From the NCBI GenBank assembly GCA_006383075.2, contig SMNH02000001.1, positions 310,001 to 374,000 on the forward strand: DNA of 64,000 nucleotides. Direction: 5' to 3'. The position numbers and the translations under genes are program-made. Source of the DNA: Kordia sp. TARA_039_SRF. GTDB taxonomy: Bacteria > Bacteroidota > Bacteroidia > Flavobacteriales > Flavobacteriaceae. How positions within the stretch are numbered: the first letter of the stretch is position 1; each line of letters opens with the position of its first letter. Below the pieces are notes generated by a model, which did no database searches, was not told where the DNA came from, and saw nothing but the letters and a program-made list of their open reading frames with translations. This document shows positions 52,274-59,429 of this stretch, piece after piece.

Positions 52274-52705
52274 ATGTCTATATCAGATTTATATTCAAGT
52301 GGATTTCGCGAAAGAAATCAAGACCACTTTGCAGCCATTGTTCGTGTGGCAATGAGTGACGGCGTTATAACAGACGAAGAAAAAGCTTTTTTAGATAGAA
52401 TGGCAAATAATTTGGATATCTCCGAAAGCGATTATAAAGAGATTTTGAAAGATTACAAATCGCATCCAATTAATCCACCAACTATGTACAGCGAGCGTTT
52501 GGATCGTTTGTACGATTTGACACGTATGGTATATGCAGACCACGAATTGGGACCAAAGCAAACGGTTATGTTAGAACGTTTGGGCATCGGATTAGGATTT
52601 TCTCCTGAAAATGTTGCGTACATCGTACATAAAGCATTAATGCTAGTTGGAAAAGGTGTCGACAGCGAAGATTTTAAAGATGAGATTAGAAATATGAATC
52701 GTTAG
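52274..52705 (+). CDS. TerB-like protein
   Basis: 143 residues. All-helical, with two copies of the TerB/DjlA-type acidic metal motif: AIVRVAMSDGVITDEEKAFL and TRMVYADHELGPKQTVML. TerB domains bind divalent metal and occur in tellurite and phage resistance and in stress proteins; a stand-alone copy has no fixed role. It is divergent from mfd with promoters back to back. A strong terminator follows. Confidence 0.85.
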   Translation: MSISDLYSSGFRERNQDHFAAIVRVAMSDGVITDEEKAFLDRMANNLDISESDYKEILKDYKSHPINPPTMYSERLDRLYDLTRMVYADHELGPKQTVMLERLGIGLGFSPENVAYIVHKALMLVGKGVDSEDFKDEIRNMNR

Positions 52706-52731
52706 TTTGAAACGATTTTGTAAGTAATAGA

Positions 52732-52761
52732 AAAACCGAACTTTTTTGAGTTCGGTTTTTT
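52732..52761 (+). terminator. Terminator of the TerB-like gene
   Basis: AAAACCGAAC and GTTCGGTTTT, a perfect 10-bp stem with an 8-base loop and a T run. Confidence 0.85.
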
Positions 52762-52985: not shown

Positions 52986-54524
52986 TTATTTCAAATACTT
53001 GTACACTTTTTTCAACAACGTACTTTCGTCAAATGGTTTTTCGATGATGTCGGTCATACCCATTTTTTTGTAGCGTTTTTTGTCTGTGTCGTATAAATTC
53101 GCGGTCAACGCCAAAATTGGAATGGTTTTGCAATTGTCTACCGGCAACGAGCGAATCATTTTGGTAAGTTCGTCACCGTGCGTTCCTGGCATGCGGATGT
53201 CCATCAAAATTAGGTCGTATTCGTTGTGAATAACGCTTTCAATTACATCTTCGCCATTGGTAATAATGTCTAAAAAGAAATTTCCTTCTTGTGCTAAAAT
53301 CTTCAAAACTGCCATTTGCGCCAATTCCGAATCTTCCGCGAGTAACACACTGTATTTTTCTTTGGAGAGAAAGTTTTTCTTTTCAATTTCTGATTTTTTA
53401 TCTAAAGACGTCTGCTCTTGATTGATAGGATATTTCAAATTCATGTTGATTTTGAAAGTAGTTCCTTTTCCTTCGTCACTTTCTACAACAATTTTTCCAT
53501 CCATCAATTCCACCAATCCTTTTACAATAGACAAACCAAGTCCTGTACCTTTGAATTTTTTTGAATTGTTGAGTTGGGTGAAACTGTGAAAAATCACATC
53601 GAGTTTGTCGGCAGGAATTCCAATTCCCGTATCTTTAATGGTAATATTTACATTTACTTTGCGCGCTCTTTTTTGATTGGCTTGCATAGAAAACGTGACT
53701 TTTCCTGAGCTTGTAAATTTCAGCGCATTTTCAATCAGGTTTTCCAATATTTGCTTGATGCGTGTTTTGTCAGCTTCAATATATTTTGGAATTTTTTTGT
53801 CAAAATCGACTTCAAATTCTAAATTTTTCTGCTTGGCTTTTACGCTATAGGTAAACTCCAACATTTCAATAAGTTCATGAAAGTTGAAGAGTTCTTCGTT
53901 GAGTGCTAATTTCCCAACTTCAATTTTGGATACTTCCAAAATATCGCCAATCATGTTTTTTAAATGATCTGCGGACGATTTGATGACTTCTACATAATCT
54001 TGCTGCTCTAGCGTCATGTCCGTTTTTTGCAATACCGAACAAAAAGCCGTTACGCCTGTTAGCGGATTGCGCAATTCGTGACTAAAATTTGCGATGAACG
54101 TATTTTTAAAATCTTCTTTTTCTTTAAGATATTTATTCTTTAACTCTAAAATTTGCGAGTTGATCACTGATTCATTTCTGCTCTGTGCAACTTCTTGATA
54201 GTATTTGTAATGATCGGAAAAATCGTGAATAATAATCAGCGTTGGTTTGGTAGCATCTGCAAAGGTTTTAAATTCAATATCGCAAGTATATTCGCGTTTG
54301 TTTTGATCTTCCAGATGTACACAGGTAAACTTGATATCGTTGTCTTCTTCCGCTTCAAAATACGCAGAAAGACCTTCAAAAAAAGCACTAATAGTGCTGA
54401 TATCTTCTCCTTTCGTTACAGGAAAAAGAATATCATCGCTTTCAAGGACATTTCCTGATGCATCAATAGTTATAAATTGCGTTCTCGGATGAAAATAAGT
54501 TCCTCTATAGGTTTCTAACATCAT
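52986..54524 (-). CDS. Hybrid histidine kinase with C-terminal receiver
   Basis: 512 residues, cytosolic. A PAS-like sensor covers about 1-105 (THPRTQ-like start, TIDASGNVLESDD). A coiled helix leads to the dimerisation/phospho-acceptor domain with NFSHELRNPL (His149). The ATPase domain has ENLIENALKF, KDTGIGIPADKL and KGTGLGLSIVKGLVEL. The receiver (about 390-510) keeps Asp442 in LILMDIRMPG. No output domain follows. It is the last gene of the GTPase operon, 2 bases after the GTPase stop, so the kinase and GTPase are probably functionally coupled. Confidence 0.94.
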   Translation of the reverse strand: MMLETYRGTYFHPRTQFITIDASGNVLESDDILFPVTKGEDISTISAFFEGLSAYFEAEEDNDIKFTCVHLEDQNKREYTCDIEFKTFADATKPTLIIIHDFSDHYKYYQEVAQSRNESVINSQILELKNKYLKEKEDFKNTFIANFSHELRNPLTGVTAFCSVLQKTDMTLEQQDYVEVIKSSADHLKNMIGDILEVSKIEVGKLALNEELFNFHELIEMLEFTYSVKAKQKNLEFEVDFDKKIPKYIEADKTRIKQILENLIENALKFTSSGKVTFSMQANQKRARKVNVNITIKDTGIGIPADKLDVIFHSFTQLNNSKKFKGTGLGLSIVKGLVELMDGKIVVESDEGKGTTFKINMNLKYPINQEQTSLDKKSEIEKKNFLSKEKYSVLLAEDSELAQMAVLKILAQEGNFFLDIITNGEDVIESVIHNEYDLILMDIRMPGTHGDELTKMIRSLPVDNCKTIPILALTANLYDTDKKRYKKMGMTDIIEKPFDESTLLKKVYKYLK

Positions 54525-54526
54525 AA

Positions 54527-55021
54527 TTATTTCACAAGTTCTTTAGCAAGGGCGATGAACATATCGTCTACTTTATCACCTGTTTTTGCACTTGTAAAAA
54601 AGTCAGGCGCCACAGCAAACATGTCTTTGTTTTCTTTTAAATACGTTTTGGTAACCAAGTCAGCTTTGTTTCCCACAATTTTTAGTGGCGTGTTGGCGTA
54701 TTGGTTGGTTAGGTAGGTTATGTCGTCTTTCAGATTTTCGAAGGTTGCGGGGCGCGTTACGTCAAACACATAAATAAAACCGTGTGTACCTAGTAGGTAG
54801 GAGGCTCTGGTTTTTCTAATGTCATCGTATCCTTCTAAATCCCAAATAATTAGTGAAACGGTTTCTTCTGGCGAAATTTTCACTTCTTTTTTTAGGATAT
54901 GAACTCCAATAGTAACTTTGTAATCGGTTGTAAAAGTATTTTCCACAAACTGTCGTATCAAGGATGATTTCCCGACACCAAAGTGACCTAATAGGATTAT
55001 TTTTTTAGAGGCTTTCTTCAT
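54527..55021 (-). CDS. Rab/Ras-like small GTPase
   Basis: 164 residues, a single GTPase domain. G1 GHFGVGKSS (12-20), switch I YKVTIGV with Thr37, G3 WDLEGYDD (60-67), G4 NKAD (118-121), G5 SAK (144-146). The residue that would be the catalytic Gln after DxxG is Tyr65, so intrinsic hydrolysis is probably low and may depend on a partner. No lipid-attachment cysteine is seen at the C-terminus. Its start overlaps the adaptor gene upstream by 17 bases. MglA of Myxococcus is the best-known bacterial relative in concept; this protein belongs to a different group. Confidence 0.92.
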   Translation of the reverse strand: MKKASKKIILLGHFGVGKSSLIRQFVENTFTTDYKVTIGVHILKKEVKISPEETVSLIIWDLEGYDDIRKTRASYLLGTHGFIYVFDVTRPATFENLKDDITYLTNQYANTPLKIVGNKADLVTKTYLKENKDMFAVAPDFFTSAKTGDKVDDMFIALAKELVK

Positions 55022-55841
55022 TCGTACTAAAGTAGAATTCTAATTCGTTAGTAATATCTTCTTCTTTAATTTCATTTAAATCGCTAAATAAACTTAAAAA
55101 GTTATCGGTAAAATTAAAGATTATATCTTGTATTTTATTCTTAAAGATAAGATTATATTCTCCAGAAATAACAACTGCCACGTAATAAGATACAAAGCTT
55201 TGAATATGAATATGATACAATTCGTACTCAATCAATTCTAAGTTTTGACTTTTCCCCTGAAAGGCATCTTCTACAAAACTTTTTATAGCAGTTAACATTC
55301 CAGAAACCATATCTTTGTCTATAGTTTCCGTTTTGGCGTATTGTCCAATCAGTACACCAGAATTTTTTTCTACAACCAGCACTTGTTCTACTTGCGAAAT
55401 AGAGGATAATTGACTCAGTAGCAATTCTTCTTCACGAACGCCGCCAAACCACGACCTGAATTTTCGCTTCCAGCTTTTGGCAGAAAAACTATCTTCCAAT
55501 TGCTTGTTGATGCGCTCTGTAAGCAAGTTAATTTCCTGCGAAATATACTTCTTAATCATCTTTCCCATAATGGGATACAACGCTTCCACCACTTGGTCTT
55601 TAGAATTTTTAATCTGCTCCGCTAACGCTTCTGTAATGGTAGGACCGAGCGTTTCTGGAATTTCTTCAATAAATTCTTCCAATCGCTCATCAATAATAGG
55701 ATCAACCTTGTTGGAAAGCTTTTTTTGCTCATTGATAATTGCTTCGAGCGCCTCGATTTTTTTGTGTATAGATTCCGCATACGCACGATCGTCCGTGAGT
55801 AATAAATCTTTTAATAACGTTAATTTATCAGCTTCCGTCAT
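55005..55841 (-). CDS. Adaptor protein with helical N-terminus and probable roadblock/longin-like domain
   Basis: 278 residues. The helical first half (LLKDLLLTDDRAYAESIHKK, ETLGPTITEALAEQIK, ALYPIMGKMIKKYISQEIN) resembles the cytosolic N-terminal region of long OmpA-related proteins of other phyla, including the kink FRSWFGG. The second half (VEQVLVVEKNSGVLIGQYA and YYVAVVISGEYN strands) has the alternating pattern of roadblock/LC7 or longin domains, which act as GTPase partners. It overlaps the GTPase gene by 17 bases, so it is a likely activator or scaffold for that GTPase. Family similarity is recalled, not computed. Confidence 0.6.
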   Translation of the reverse strand: MTEADKLTLLKDLLLTDDRAYAESIHKKIEALEAIINEQKKLSNKVDPIIDERLEEFIEEIPETLGPTITEALAEQIKNSKDQVVEALYPIMGKMIKKYISQEINLLTERINKQLEDSFSAKSWKRKFRSWFGGVREEELLLSQLSSISQVEQVLVVEKNSGVLIGQYAKTETIDKDMVSGMLTAIKSFVEDAFQGKSQNLELIEYELYHIHIQSFVSYYVAVVISGEYNLIFKNKIQDIIFNFTDNFLSLFSDLNEIKEEDITNELEFYFSTNEESL

Positions 55842-55868
55842 AAATACACATAAGAAAAATGTAGCGGG

Positions 55869-56240
55869 TTATTCTTTCCCAATCTTCTCACCAAGGTTGA
55901 TGAGTAACTGCCCTAATTGTCTACGATCGACTTTCTTTTCGTCCAAATCGTCCAACTTGTTTTCCATATTCGTTTCCAATTCGGTAATGCGAATATTTAA
56001 GTCAGTGCTCAGATTGTCAATGTTTTGAATCAATTCTGAACGCACTTCTTCAATCAAATTTTCAAGTGCTTGTTTTTTGGCAAGGATATCATTTTTGATG
56101 TTGTCAAACTCAGAATTGTAGGCTTGAATATTCTCTCCAAAAATTAAATTCTTAATCGCCTCAATCTTAGTAGATGGATCGGTCATGCTAGGATTTGCTT
56201 GACCAGCATCACTATTGGTATTTTCACCTTTTGTAGCCAT
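55869..56240 (-). CDS. Coiled-coil protein of the GTPase operon
   Basis: 123 residues. A flexible Ser/Asn/Asp-rich start (about 1-25) is followed by a long heptad-patterned helix (KNDILAKKQALENLIEEVRS, ELETNMENKLDDLDEK). No catalytic or membrane feature. Its short C-terminal block (RRQLGQLLINLGEKIGKE) may be a docking element. It is the first gene of the operon, 27 bases before the adaptor. I do not know the family; a dimeric scaffold is the simplest reading. Confidence 0.65.
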   Translation of the reverse strand: MATKGENTNSDAGQANPSMTDPSTKIEAIKNLIFGENIQAYNSEFDNIKNDILAKKQALENLIEEVRSELIQNIDNLSTDLNIRITELETNMENKLDDLDEKKVDRRQLGQLLINLGEKIGKE

Positions 56241-56307: not shown

Positions 56308-57312
56308 CTACGAGTTCTTCATAAACTCTTCTGCTTTTTCTACCATTTTACGACTTCCACAAAAGATAGGAACGCGTTGATGTAGCGCTGTCGGATGAAT
56401 GTCCATAATACGTTGAAAACCATCAGAAGCCAATCCGTTAGCTTGCTCGGCTAAAAATGCCATCGGATTACATTCGTATAACAAACGTAGTTTTCCATTG
56501 GGCGCTTTGGAAGTTTGCGGATATATGTAAATACCACCTTTAATTAAATTTCTATGGAAGTCAGAAACCAACGAACCAATATAACGTGATGTGTACGGAC
56601 GATCTTCTTTTTCTTCCTGACAATATTTGATATAACTTTTTACGCCTTGCGGGAAATGCGCATAATTCCCTTCGTTAATGGAATAAATATTTCCTGTTTC
56701 GGGAAATTGCATAATAGGATGCGATAAGTAAAACGTCCCAATAGCAGGATTTAGCGTAAAACCATTCACACCGTGTCCTGTTGTGTACACTAACATGGTT
56801 GAGGTTCCGTAAATCACATAACCTGCGGCTACTTGCTTGTTGCCTTCTTGCAGGAAATCATCAATCGTTACTGGTGTTCCCACAGGCGTCACTCTACGGT
56901 AGATTGAAAAAATAGTTCCCACAGAAACATTCACATCAATATTAGAAGAACCATCAAGCGGATCAATCAGCACCACATATTTATTTTGATTGTTTTCGTC
57001 CAAACTATTAATCGCGATAAAATCATCGTTCTCTTCAGAGCCAATTCCGCACACAATATTACGATTGCTCAAGGTTTGGATAAACTTTTCATTGGCATAC
57101 ACATCAAGCTTTTGCTGGTCTTCTCCTTGAATATTAGTATCGCCAGCAGCTCCGATAATATCTACCAATCCCGCTTTATTTACTTCGTGATTTACCACCT
57201 TTGCGGCGAGTCGGATAGAATTGATCAATCGGGAAAGTTCTCCAGAAGAATATTTGAATTCAGCTTGGTTTTCAATAATAAATTCTCCTAAAGTTTGATT
57301 TTTTTTAGCCAT
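56308..57312 (-). CDS. fbp: Fructose-1,6-bisphosphatase, class I
   Basis: 334 residues from the ATG at 57312 ([11 protein letters not shown]), the family's usual length. A GTG nine codons upstream is in frame but overlaps a GATATTTG promoter-like element. Motifs: [15 protein letters not shown], the metal site [18 protein letters not shown], the substrate region [15 protein letters not shown], and [12 protein letters not shown]. It dephosphorylates fructose 1,6-bisphosphate in gluconeogenesis. Single gene, divergent from the acetyltransferase. Confidence 0.97.
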
Positions 57313-57399
57313 GTTGTCCTGAGTTGTTTCTGAAATCACAAATATCGATAATTTTGTAAAACTATAACGTTTTCGTAAAAAATATAATTTTTGGCTTGT

Positions 57400-57407
57400 T
57401 ACCTTTG
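57400..57407 (+). promoter_or_regulatory. -7 promoter element of the acetyltransferase gene (TACCTTTG)
   Basis: An exact TAnnTTTG match 20 bases before the ATG at 57427; it rules out the upstream TTG at 57391. Confidence 0.55.
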
Positions 57408-57426
57408 TGTAAATATTTTGAAGCTT

Positions 57427-57909
57427 ATGAATTTTACCATCCGAAAAGCCGTTGCAACCGATGTTGATGCTATTTTTAGACTTATCAACGAATTGGCAAT
57501 TTTTGAAAAAGAAGCTGATGCCGTCATCATTACGCCAGAAGATTTACGAAAAGATGGTTTTGGCACGCATCCAAAATTTCATTGCTTTGTAGCAGAAACC
57601 ACCGAAGAAGTGCTCGGCATTGCGTTGGTGTACATGCGTTATTCTACTTGGAAAGGTGAAGTATTGCATTTGGAAGATTTAATCGTGAGCGAAAAAGCAC
57701 GAGGCAAAGGAATTGGCGGCGCACTGTTAACCGAAGTTATTAAGTTTGGAAACGACTTAGGCGTAAAACGAATTAGTTGGGAAGTGTTGGATTGGAACAC
57801 GCCTGCGATAGAATTTTACGAACACATCGGAGCCAATGTCATGCGCGATTGGCATGTAGTACAGTTAGATGAAGCGGGAATTGCGGAGTATTTAGCGAAT
57901 AAGTTGTGA
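57427..57909 (+). CDS. GNAT acetyltransferase, diamine-acetyltransferase-like
   Basis: 160 residues. [20 protein letters not shown] is the standard first strand and helix, [19 protein letters not shown] resembles the spermidine/spermine acetyltransferase group, and [18 protein letters not shown] is the acetyl-CoA loop. The end [21 protein letters not shown] is typical. Substrates are polyamines or related amines by similarity, not proven. Start chosen by the promoter at 57400. Confidence 0.88.
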
Positions 57910-57930
57910 TTTGAGATTTTATTGAATTCA

Positions 57931-58080
57931 AAGCTGTTCTCGATACACCAAATCACAGATTTGGCACTCGAACTGACGTTTGATGTTTCAAGTTCAATTT
58001 CAAAACCGTCACTTCGAGTGATTTTTCGTGTCATTGAGCTTGCCGAAATGCAGAAAAATAGTATCGAGAAGTGCTGTGAA
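57931..58080. repeat. Dispersed repeat family E cluster
   Basis: TGTTCTCGATAC on the left and GTATCGAGAAGTGCTG on the right enclose CACTCGAACTGACG and GTCACTTCGAGTG units. The element at 63675-63750 repeats TTCTCGATAC, GTATCGAGAA and GTCAGTTCGAGTG in another order. Confidence 0.6.
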
Positions 58081-58137
58081 ACTAAACATTAAAAATCATA
58101 CGTCGTAAATCAAAAATTAACAATCGAAAATAATATA

Positions 58138-58162
58138 GATTCCTGCCTTCGCAGGAATGACA
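58138..58162. repeat. Dispersed palindrome, family B
   Basis: GATTCCTGCC and GCAGGAATGACA, 17 bases before the aspartokinase ATG. Confidence 0.7.
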
Positions 58163-58178
58163 AAGAAAATAGAATTAC

Positions 58179-59429
58179 ATGAAAATATTCAAATTTGGTG
58201 GTGCGTCTGTAAAAGATGCCAATGGAGTGAAAAACTTGGTGAATGTACTGCAACAAGTAGGGTATGACAATACGCTAATTGTGATTTCTGCGATGGGAAA
58301 AACCACAAACGCCATTGAAGTTGTCATCAAAAACTATTTTGAGAAAAATGACGAATTGCAAGCGTCGATTCAAGAAATTGCGAAATACCACAATGAAATT
58401 CTGTTGGAGTTGTTTCCCAACGAAAGTCATCCAATTTTTGGAAAAGTAAAGCAGTTTTTTGAAGAAATGCAAGGCTTTTTAGGACGTAACAAATCGCCAG
58501 ATTATAACTATGTGTACGACCAATTGGTGTCGTATGGAGAACTGATTTCCACCACAATTGTCAGTACATATTTAAACAGTGTTTCTATTGAAAACTCATG
58601 GTTGGATGCTCGTGAAATGATCAAAACTGATACATACTATCGCGATGCCAAAGTCGATTGGGAATTGACGCAGGAAAACATTAAACAGAAAGTAAATCGC
58701 AACAAACTCAACATTACACAAGGATTTATTGGAAGCGATCCAAACAACTTTACCACAACACTCGGACGAGAAGGTTCGGATTATACAGCAGCTATTTTTG
58801 CGTATTGCTTAAATGCTGAAAGCGTGACGATTTGGAAAGATGTGCCTGGCGTACTAAATGCCGATCCGCGTTATTTTGAAAATGCGCAATTATTACATCA
58901 TATTTCATACAGGGAAGCGATTGAGCTGGCATTTTATGGCGCATCAGTAATTCACCCAAAAACATTACAGCCGTTGCAACGAAAGGAAATTCCGTTGTAT
59001 GTAAAATCATTTTTAAACCCGAAAGCGGATGGAACTGCGGTAAAAAAAGGTGCTGGAATCACGCCAAATGTGCCGTGTTTTATTGTGAAAAAAAATCAGG
59101 TGTTGATTTCCTTGTCTTCGTTAGATTTCTCATTTTTTGTAGAAAATAACATTAGCGAAATCTTCAAATTGTTGCACGATTACAAAATGAAAGTAGACGT
59201 AATTCAAAACTCAGCGATTAGTTTTTCGGTGTGTATCGATAATAAGTTTAATAATTTAGAAAAATTACTCAAAACATTGCGTTCAAAATTTAAGGTAACA
59301 CACCATGAAAACGTGTCTTTATATACCATTCGGCACTTTACAGAAGCGGCGATTGAAGGTTTGCAAAAAGACAAAGAAATTTTATTAGAACAACGTGCCG
59401 ATCAAACGATTCAGCTAGTTGTGAAATAA
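58179..59429 (+). CDS. Aspartate kinase
   Basis: 416 residues, monofunctional. The kinase domain has KIFKFGGASVKDANGVKNL, VISAMGKTTNAIE, QLVSYGELISTTI and TLGREGSDYTAAI, then DPRYFENAQLL. The C-terminal part has ACT-like strands (FIVKKNQVLISLSSLDF...; VDVIQNSAISFSVCID), shorter than in lysine-sensitive forms. It phosphorylates aspartate toward lysine, threonine and methionine. Single gene. Its ACT part is related in pattern to the stand-alone protein at 43000. Confidence 0.93.
   Translation: MKIFKFGGASVKDANGVKNLVNVLQQVGYDNTLIVISAMGKTTNAIEVVIKNYFEKNDELQASIQEIAKYHNEILLELFPNESHPIFGKVKQFFEEMQGFLGRNKSPDYNYVYDQLVSYGELISTTIVSTYLNSVSIENSWLDAREMIKTDTYYRDAKVDWELTQENIKQKVNRNKLNITQGFIGSDPNNFTTTLGREGSDYTAAIFAYCLNAESVTIWKDVPGVLNADPRYFENAQLLHHISYREAIELAFYGASVIHPKTLQPLQRKEIPLYVKSFLNPKADGTAVKKGAGITPNVPCFIVKKNQVLISLSSLDFSFFVENNISEIFKLLHDYKMKVDVIQNSAISFSVCIDNKFNNLEKLLKTLRSKFKVTHHENVSLYTIRHFTEAAIEGLQKDKEILLEQRADQTIQLVVK

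Follow-up and report, generated by a model that had tools for sequence, protein, structure and literature searches.

A Rab-like GTPase with a predicted longin/roadblock-like partner and a predicted PAS-fold hybrid kinase in Kordia: a putative Group 1 Rup module

Gene content of the module

The stretch of DNA analysed, a window of 64,000 nucleotides from the genome of Kordia sp. TARA_039_SRF, carries a tight operon of four genes, coding for a coiled-coil protein, an adaptor, a Rab/Ras-like small GTPase and a hybrid histidine kinase. These genes appear to form a signalling module of the Group 1 Rup class, in which a modelled longin/roadblock-like adaptor would be the constant partner of the GTPase and a protein with a PAS-like N-terminal domain its exchangeable output. 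All coordinates given below are positions within the window. The four genes are:

55869 to 56240, minus strand: coiled-coil protein gene, 123 residues; the C-terminal half is strongly conserved and carries the pattern R-h-x-x-h-E
55005 to 55841, minus strand: adaptor gene, 278 residues; long helical region (residues 1–145), then a predicted longin/roadblock-like domain (about 150–273), without an OmpA part
54527 to 55021, minus strand: Rab/Ras-like GTPase gene, 164 residues; G1 GHFGVGKS, G3 DLEGYD, G4 NKAD, G5 SAK
52986 to 54524, minus strand: hybrid histidine kinase gene, 512 residues; predicted PAS-fold N-terminal domain (N-domain, about 1–102), helix, HisKA (His149), HATPase_c and receiver (Asp442)

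The initial annotation had described a minus-strand operon of this content, and the open reading frames bear it out; their coordinates also confirm the reported 17-base overlap between the adaptor and GTPase genes (55005–55021) and the 2-base gap separating the GTPase gene from the kinase gene. Pfam recognises HisKA (E-value 8.9e-19), HATPase_c (3.9e-29) and Response_reg (6.9e-22) in the kinase, in agreement with its description as a hybrid kinase with a receiver, and Ras (4e-32) in the GTPase, while the adaptor and the coiled-coil protein match no Pfam family above the cut-off. Above the NCBIfam cut-off, the general small-GTPase domain was the sole match and no specific model was found (for the kinase, among its best 25 matches). 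A scan of 19-residue Kyte-Doolittle means revealed no membrane-like hydrophobic segment in any of the four proteins; the highest value, 1.37, is that of the kinase and is not exceeded by the other three, consistent with the kinase being cytosolic, as had been suggested. The adaptor shows 97% identity with its Kordia periserrulae counterpart.

Conservation of gene order

The adaptor was searched for in 120 genomes of the family and is present in 28, counting the genome of origin and four fragmentary or weak matches, and in 22 of the 100 good-quality genomes. Besides the Kordia locus there are 27 family loci, of which 25 were fetched; with the fragments L060 and L061 excluded and the weak matches L035 and L036 left aside, 23 intact loci were available. 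A second set, the named loci, comprises the best 80 of 554 relatives in a genome collection and is therefore biased towards close relatives. The two sets have eight loci in common and together contain 95 distinct adaptors; named cultured Flavobacteriaceae strains are among the carriers. Rows L060, L085 and L086 were left out of alignment A3, and the short N-domain row L123 out of alignment A4.

The order coiled coil–adaptor–GTPase–kinase is conserved in 23 of 23 intact family loci, so it is not a product of chance, and in 80 of 80 named loci. The association of kinase and GTPase drawn in the initial annotation thus holds within the family, but one other gene order, described below, has a sigma-54 activator instead of the kinase. 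The adaptor and GTPase genes overlap in 67 of the 77 named loci with a placeable start (by 14 bases in 57 of these), and in 74 of the 80 no more than 10 bases separate the GTPase gene from the next gene. Four of the 23 family loci contain insertions (L046, L049, L050 and L051) and another, L044, a second kinase. Among the named loci, six have a tandem second kinase, six have an additional GTPase, with a stand-alone kinase N-domain or two such domains lying in between, and two (L136 and L156) have a stand-alone N-domain with one GTPase; the kinase frame is split in L107 and L118, and the kinase is short in L108 and L139.

The GTPase and the coiled-coil protein

The closest relatives of the GTPase among PDB sequences are Rab1 proteins (best E-value 4.3e-24), as expected from its description as Rab/Ras-like. 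The G1, G3, G4 and G5 elements are conserved, and the switch I threonine position is occupied by Thr or Ser in 122 of 123 rows. The catalytic glutamine of G3 is absent from the Kordia protein, which has a tyrosine at that position (DLEGYD). At what we take to be the position of Ras Gln61, 111 distinct GTPases have Thr (36), Asn (31), His (9), Tyr (8), Phe (7), Gln (6), Glu (6), Ser (4) or one of four residues found once each, and at the presumed Gly12 position Phe is present in 115 of the 123 rows. Classical GTP hydrolysis is therefore unlikely to proceed without help.

These two features, both of which would impair classical hydrolysis, could also mean that the GTPase does not cycle and serves as a constitutively GTP-bound scaffold, localising the kinase together with the adaptor and the coiled coil. 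We consider this rather improbable: the conservation of the G elements and of the switch I threonine suggests selection for cycling, and a near-invariant glutamine is available in a partner protein.

The coiled-coil protein was assigned as such by inspection and from weak Pfam matches to coiled proteins. The R-h-x-x-h-E pattern, which we assume to be a trimer signature, is found in 93 of the 94 distinct family sequences, compared with 3.6% of shuffled ones. An N-terminal motif common to this protein and the adaptor, similar by eye, gave an hhalign probability of 5 and an E-value of 0.0074 and is not claimed.

The adaptor

The AlphaFold2 model of the adaptor, based on an 83-sequence alignment, has a predicted local distance difference test value (pLDDT) of 81 and a predicted template-modelling score (pTM) of 0.50. 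Long helices extend to residue 145 and are followed by two strands, a helix, three strands and two helices. A Foldseek comparison with the PDB gave 764 matches, 17 of them with E-values of 0.001 or below (best 6.3e-5), the target-normalised template-modelling score being about 0.3–0.6 in the first 17 rows. Matched structures include AP-1/AP-2, Rag/Ragulator, Mon1-Ccz1, CPLANE, the Ykt6 longin domain, dynein roadblock and MglB; the best 50 of the 764 all come from entries holding what we take, in part from their titles, to be longin/roadblock chains. The C-terminal domain is modelled as a longin/roadblock fold, with a strand-strand-helix-three-strand-helix core like that of solved members, and the roadblock/longin-like domain suspected in the initial annotation was thus found, in a model of moderate quality.

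A longin domain is slightly favoured over a roadblock domain. When the 83 adaptors were scanned with Pfam, Fuz_longin_1 (the FUZ/MON1/HPS1 longin) was matched weakly in three (best E-value 0.0009), amid many other weak matches. Robl_LC7 gave no match to the window adaptor at E-values up to 1 and is absent among the 25 families listed of the 119 for the 83 adaptors. The adaptor profile compared with PDB sequences gave a best E-value of 0.083, taken as chance. In other gene orders, OmpA (PF00691) lies C-terminal to the adaptor domain in all three adaptors scanned (L076, L081 and L083), and these long adaptors reach 19-residue Kyte-Doolittle means of 2.29–2.34, revealing a hydrophobic segment.

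A longin/roadblock fold encoded beside a Ras-like GTPase, with MglB among the structure matches, recalls the MglA/MglB polarity system for gliding, to which the pair had been likened. Membership of that system was rejected because the G3 motif differs: in the passages of PMC4316618 used here it is TVPGQ or GTPGQ in MglA, whereas the module has DLEGYD. The module adaptor is also longer and slightly more longin-like, Robl_LC7 is missing in the scans described above, and the adaptor occurs in just 28 of the 120 family genomes. No recognised motility gene is among the 22 neighbour clusters listed, which were judged without a Pfam scan, and nothing pointing to gliding turned up in the sequence and neighbour data, no dedicated gliding test having been made. 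We regard a polarity system of this kind as highly improbable; what stands of the resemblance is a functional analogy.

The kinase N-domain and its conserved glutamines

For the kinase N-domain, a model based on a 104-sequence alignment (pLDDT 90, pTM 0.64) has a PAS arrangement, with one helix leading into HisKA. Its top eight structure matches in the PDB are a blue-light photoreceptor and chimeric LOV-histidine kinases; the root mean square deviation over the whole length is high. The kinase N-terminus is therefore modelled as a PAS fold ahead of HisKA; a Pfam PAS family is absent among the 25 families listed of the 50 for the 104 N-domain members. One site in the Kordia genome matches the whole N-domain, while 16 others match it in part: 15 in the linker and HisKA only, and one, weakly, over model positions 25–205, at 47 bits. 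Two residues of the region stand out: glutamine occupies the Q16 position in 111 of 113 distinct N-domains (the other two show a His and a gap in the alignment) and the Q114 position in 110 of 113.

Extra GTPases accompanied by stand-alone N-domains occur at the family loci L046, L049 and L051 and at the named loci L120, L123, L140, L142, L144 and L167; L046 and L142, and likewise L051 and L167, are probably from the same genomes, as the adaptors within each pair are identical. In the tree, the seven distinct GTPase1 copies all fall into a single clade (support 1.0), and the stand-alone N-domains into another (11 of 11, 0.975). The presence of stand-alone N-domains beside an extra GTPase suggests that the N-domain is the part of the kinase that faces the GTPase. 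Of the tree-distance partial correlations calculated for 15 pairs over 38 loci, that between GTPase and N-domain is the highest (0.64); the value for adaptor and coiled coil is 0.63.

Outputs of the module

Of 103 distinct kinases, 101 retain the HisKA histidine. The receiver aspartate is present in 69 and replaced in 30, four having no aligned residue (30 of 99 with a residue); the Kordia kinase retains both. The replacements are Lys, Ser, Asn, Ala and Thr (examples are L045–L047, L049–L052, L057, L125 and L133). Asn is found in the second tandem kinases, which belong to one clade (6 of 6 distinct), Lys at loci with extra GTPases or N-domains and at some single ones, and Ser, Ala and Thr at others. 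No recognised regulator is among the 22 recurrent neighbour clusters listed, judged as above. The Kordia genome encodes two small Hpt-like proteins (G000:C1:611325-611552 and G000:C1:29050-29265), one just over the cut-off and one below it, which could be phosphate carriers for hybrid kinases.

In one other gene order, a sigma-54 activator directly follows the GTPase (L076–L078 and L210–L212), confirmed by Pfam in six of six. Its N-domain is homologous to that of the kinase, with an hhalign probability of 72 and an E-value of 3.4e-5 over 111 of 130 columns. A PAS-like N-domain on sigma-54 activators means that a G-protein switch is apparently also wired to sigma-54 transcription. Read from the alignment, five of these six activators have Glu at the Q16 place and one has Val, which weakens the idea of a glutamine supplied in trans by Q16; the Q114 place is Gln in all six, making Q114, conserved across outputs, the better candidate for a lent glutamine. 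In another gene order, a kinase follows the GTPase in 12 of 12 loci scanned, and the next gene codes for an NtrC-type regulator in all eight such genes scanned with Pfam.

The wiring could also run the other way, with the kinase upstream, sensing through its PAS domain and setting the GTPase, as the real output, either by phosphorylation or with the PAS domain acting as GTPase-activating protein (GAP), by comparison with the conservons of actinobacteria. The replacement of the receiver aspartate in 30 of 99 kinases with retention of the histidine, by which the receiver is not the general output, would fit this, as would the existence of N-domains that stand alone without a kinase, and for conservons passages of PMC4316618 and PMC13343842 suggest the GTPase as output. 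We nevertheless find this reading unlikely: outputs are swapped for sigma-54 activators, which would not phosphorylate a GTPase, and a constant core combined with a changing output suggests that the core is upstream.

Chromosomal address and loss

Around the module, the following features were found:

52731 to 52760, minus strand: terminator-like stem-loop, 3' of the kinase gene and ahead of the convergent terB; a consensus match only
56308 to 57339, minus strand: fbp, on the same strand and 67 bases upstream of the module; a conserved neighbour, probably positional
52274 to 52705: terB, on the other side of the module
56308 to 59429: fbp, a GNAT gene and lysC

The stem-loop search gave five consensus matches in the region, with 3.0 expected in shuffles. 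The chromosomal address of the module can be written lysC–GNAT–fbp–module–terB–mfd. Among the 80 named loci, fbp is found just upstream on the same strand in 44, lysC in 44, terB in 42, the GNAT gene in 40 and mfd in 30. A functional link to fbp metabolism was rejected, since lysC, terB, the GNAT gene and mfd are kept too, and 16 of 30 fbp loci have terB next to fbp with no module there; the neighbourhood is thus an address and not functional evidence.

These 30 are the best fbp loci; fbp itself occurs in 107 of the 120 family genomes. The module is present in four of them and neither module nor terB adjacency in nine, and at one (L240, genome G062) the remains of a broken adaptor gene lie between fbp and terB, so that decay of the module is seen at one locus. 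At L239 the address is empty, and the module is located at another place in the same genome. The module would have been inherited vertically at the fbp/terB address with repeated loss; movement also occurs.

Relation to known systems

Wiring of a GTPase to a phosphorelay had been put forward as something other than a standard bacterial pathway, which overstated its novelty: Group 1 Rup systems (PMC4316618, Wuichet and Sogaard-Andersen 2014) and conservons (PMC13343842) have been described. In the passages of PMC4316618 used here, Group 1 Rup systems contain a coiled-coil protein and a conserved-domain protein, the domain often being followed by a membrane helix and OmpA; their output is a histidine kinase or cyclic di-GMP enzyme whose N-terminal region has an invariant glutamine. 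The same source counts Bacteroidetes among the carriers, finds Rab/Ran/Ras/Rho proteins very similar to Group 1 Rup proteins and states that, as of 2014, no Rup member had been experimentally characterised; that the output protein lends the GTPase its glutamine is a speculation of its authors.

The Kordia module is filed as a probable Group 1 Rup member, by gene content and motifs. Its GTPase is a single-domain protein of 164 residues (class range 150–240) with Ras/Rab-like G1–G5 motifs, and the catalytic G3 glutamine is missing (Tyr in Kordia; Gln in 6 of 111 distinct relatives). A coiled-coil-family gene is a neighbour in 80 of 80 named loci. The adaptor would be the conserved-domain protein, and the near-invariant Q16 and Q114 of the kinase N-terminus recall the invariant glutamine. 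The window adaptor differs in lacking OmpA and a hydrophobic segment, both carried by its relatives L076, L081 and L083. Beyond what those passages contain, the present analysis adds predicted folds, the sigma-54 outputs, the decay of the receiver and the duplication of N-domains.

Among the systems compared here, the nearest one for which data exist is, by analogy, that of the actinobacterial conservons/AGPS (CvnA-D), which likewise combine a histidine kinase, a small GTPase and a roadblock-type protein in one operon (passages of PMC13343842). They consist, according to PMC4316618, of the MglB-type CvnB, CvnC, an MglA-family GTPase and a membrane kinase with a C-terminal LPxR motif. In Streptomyces conservons another GTPase is joined to another kinase; the four module proteins do not match the Pfam families of CvnC or MglB-type CvnB, and the module kinase has neither LPxR nor a hydrophobic segment. 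Among eukaryotic systems, Rabs and longin exchange factors such as Mon1-Ccz1 and CPLANE, both among the structure matches, resemble the module in pairing a Rab-like GTPase with a longin-like fold, but the adaptor model has a single longin-like domain and no tandem arrangement.

Among the matches listed in a search of the open-access literature, which is not proof of absence, none studies a Rup system by experiment or assigns a longin or PAS fold to one. As far as these searches show, the modelled longin/roadblock and PAS fold assignments are new. The same applies to the swapping of outputs (hybrid kinase, kinase with NtrC-type regulator, sigma-54 activator) while the GTPase/adaptor core stays constant, to the retention of Q114, unlike Q16, across outputs, to the loss of the receiver aspartate in several lineages and to the fixed address with at least one case of decay.

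Proposed mechanism

We think it probable that, in this Group 1 Rup module, the GTPase is loaded or scaffolded by the longin adaptor and, in its GTP-bound form, sets the kinase via the PAS domain. Longin proteins serve eukaryotic Rabs as platforms or exchange factors. In a similar way the adaptor, probably dimeric and carried on a helical stalk that the coiled-coil protein holds, would be the platform for the GTPase and possibly its exchange factor. The GTP-bound GTPase would bind the PAS domain, and the helix between PAS and HisKA would relay the change to the core of the kinase. A further role of the PAS domain may be to complete the cycle by supplying the glutamine missing from the GTPase. 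The kinase would then pass phosphate via His149 and, in Kordia, the receiver to an Hpt protein and a regulator. We place the GTPase upstream and the kinase as output because the GTPase/adaptor core is constant and the output protein changes between lineages. A further-reaching version, in which the module is a bacterial Rab-longin pair, the PAS domain is both effector and GAP, lending Q114 rather than Q16, and the G-protein switch leads to a kinase or sigma-54 output, is put forward tentatively.

Several points weigh against the proposed scheme. The adaptor model is of moderate quality, as its pLDDT of 81 and pTM of 0.50 indicate. The N-termini of the 15 kinases of the other gene order have no detectable sequence relation to the N-domain (hhalign probability 3); in this weak alignment, the Q114 place is Gln in 14 of the 14 rows that reach it (L086 being unreadable). 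Four of 28 distant loci (L079, L080, L084 and L221) have a long adaptor and a coiled coil without an adjacent GTPase, which may be encoded elsewhere in the genome. The second GTPase copies do not group cleanly in the tree (support 0.49, eight single-GTPase loci falling among them), L050, L136 and L156 have a stand-alone N-domain with just one GTPase, and co-duplication of GTPase and N-domain counts once, as it is probably one event. The tree-distance correlations lend weak support, because terB, a control presumed to be unrelated, itself reaches partial correlations of 0.59 (kinase core) and 0.47 (N-domain).

With a longin-like constant partner and a PAS-fold output, the Group 1 Rup class would gain a testable mechanism. 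The module bears on how GTPase switches are coupled to two-component signalling and on the origin of the Rab-longin pairing. If the further-reaching version of the proposed scheme is true, the GTPase-longin pairing of eukaryotic trafficking would also be a bacterial signalling device, perhaps of common origin.

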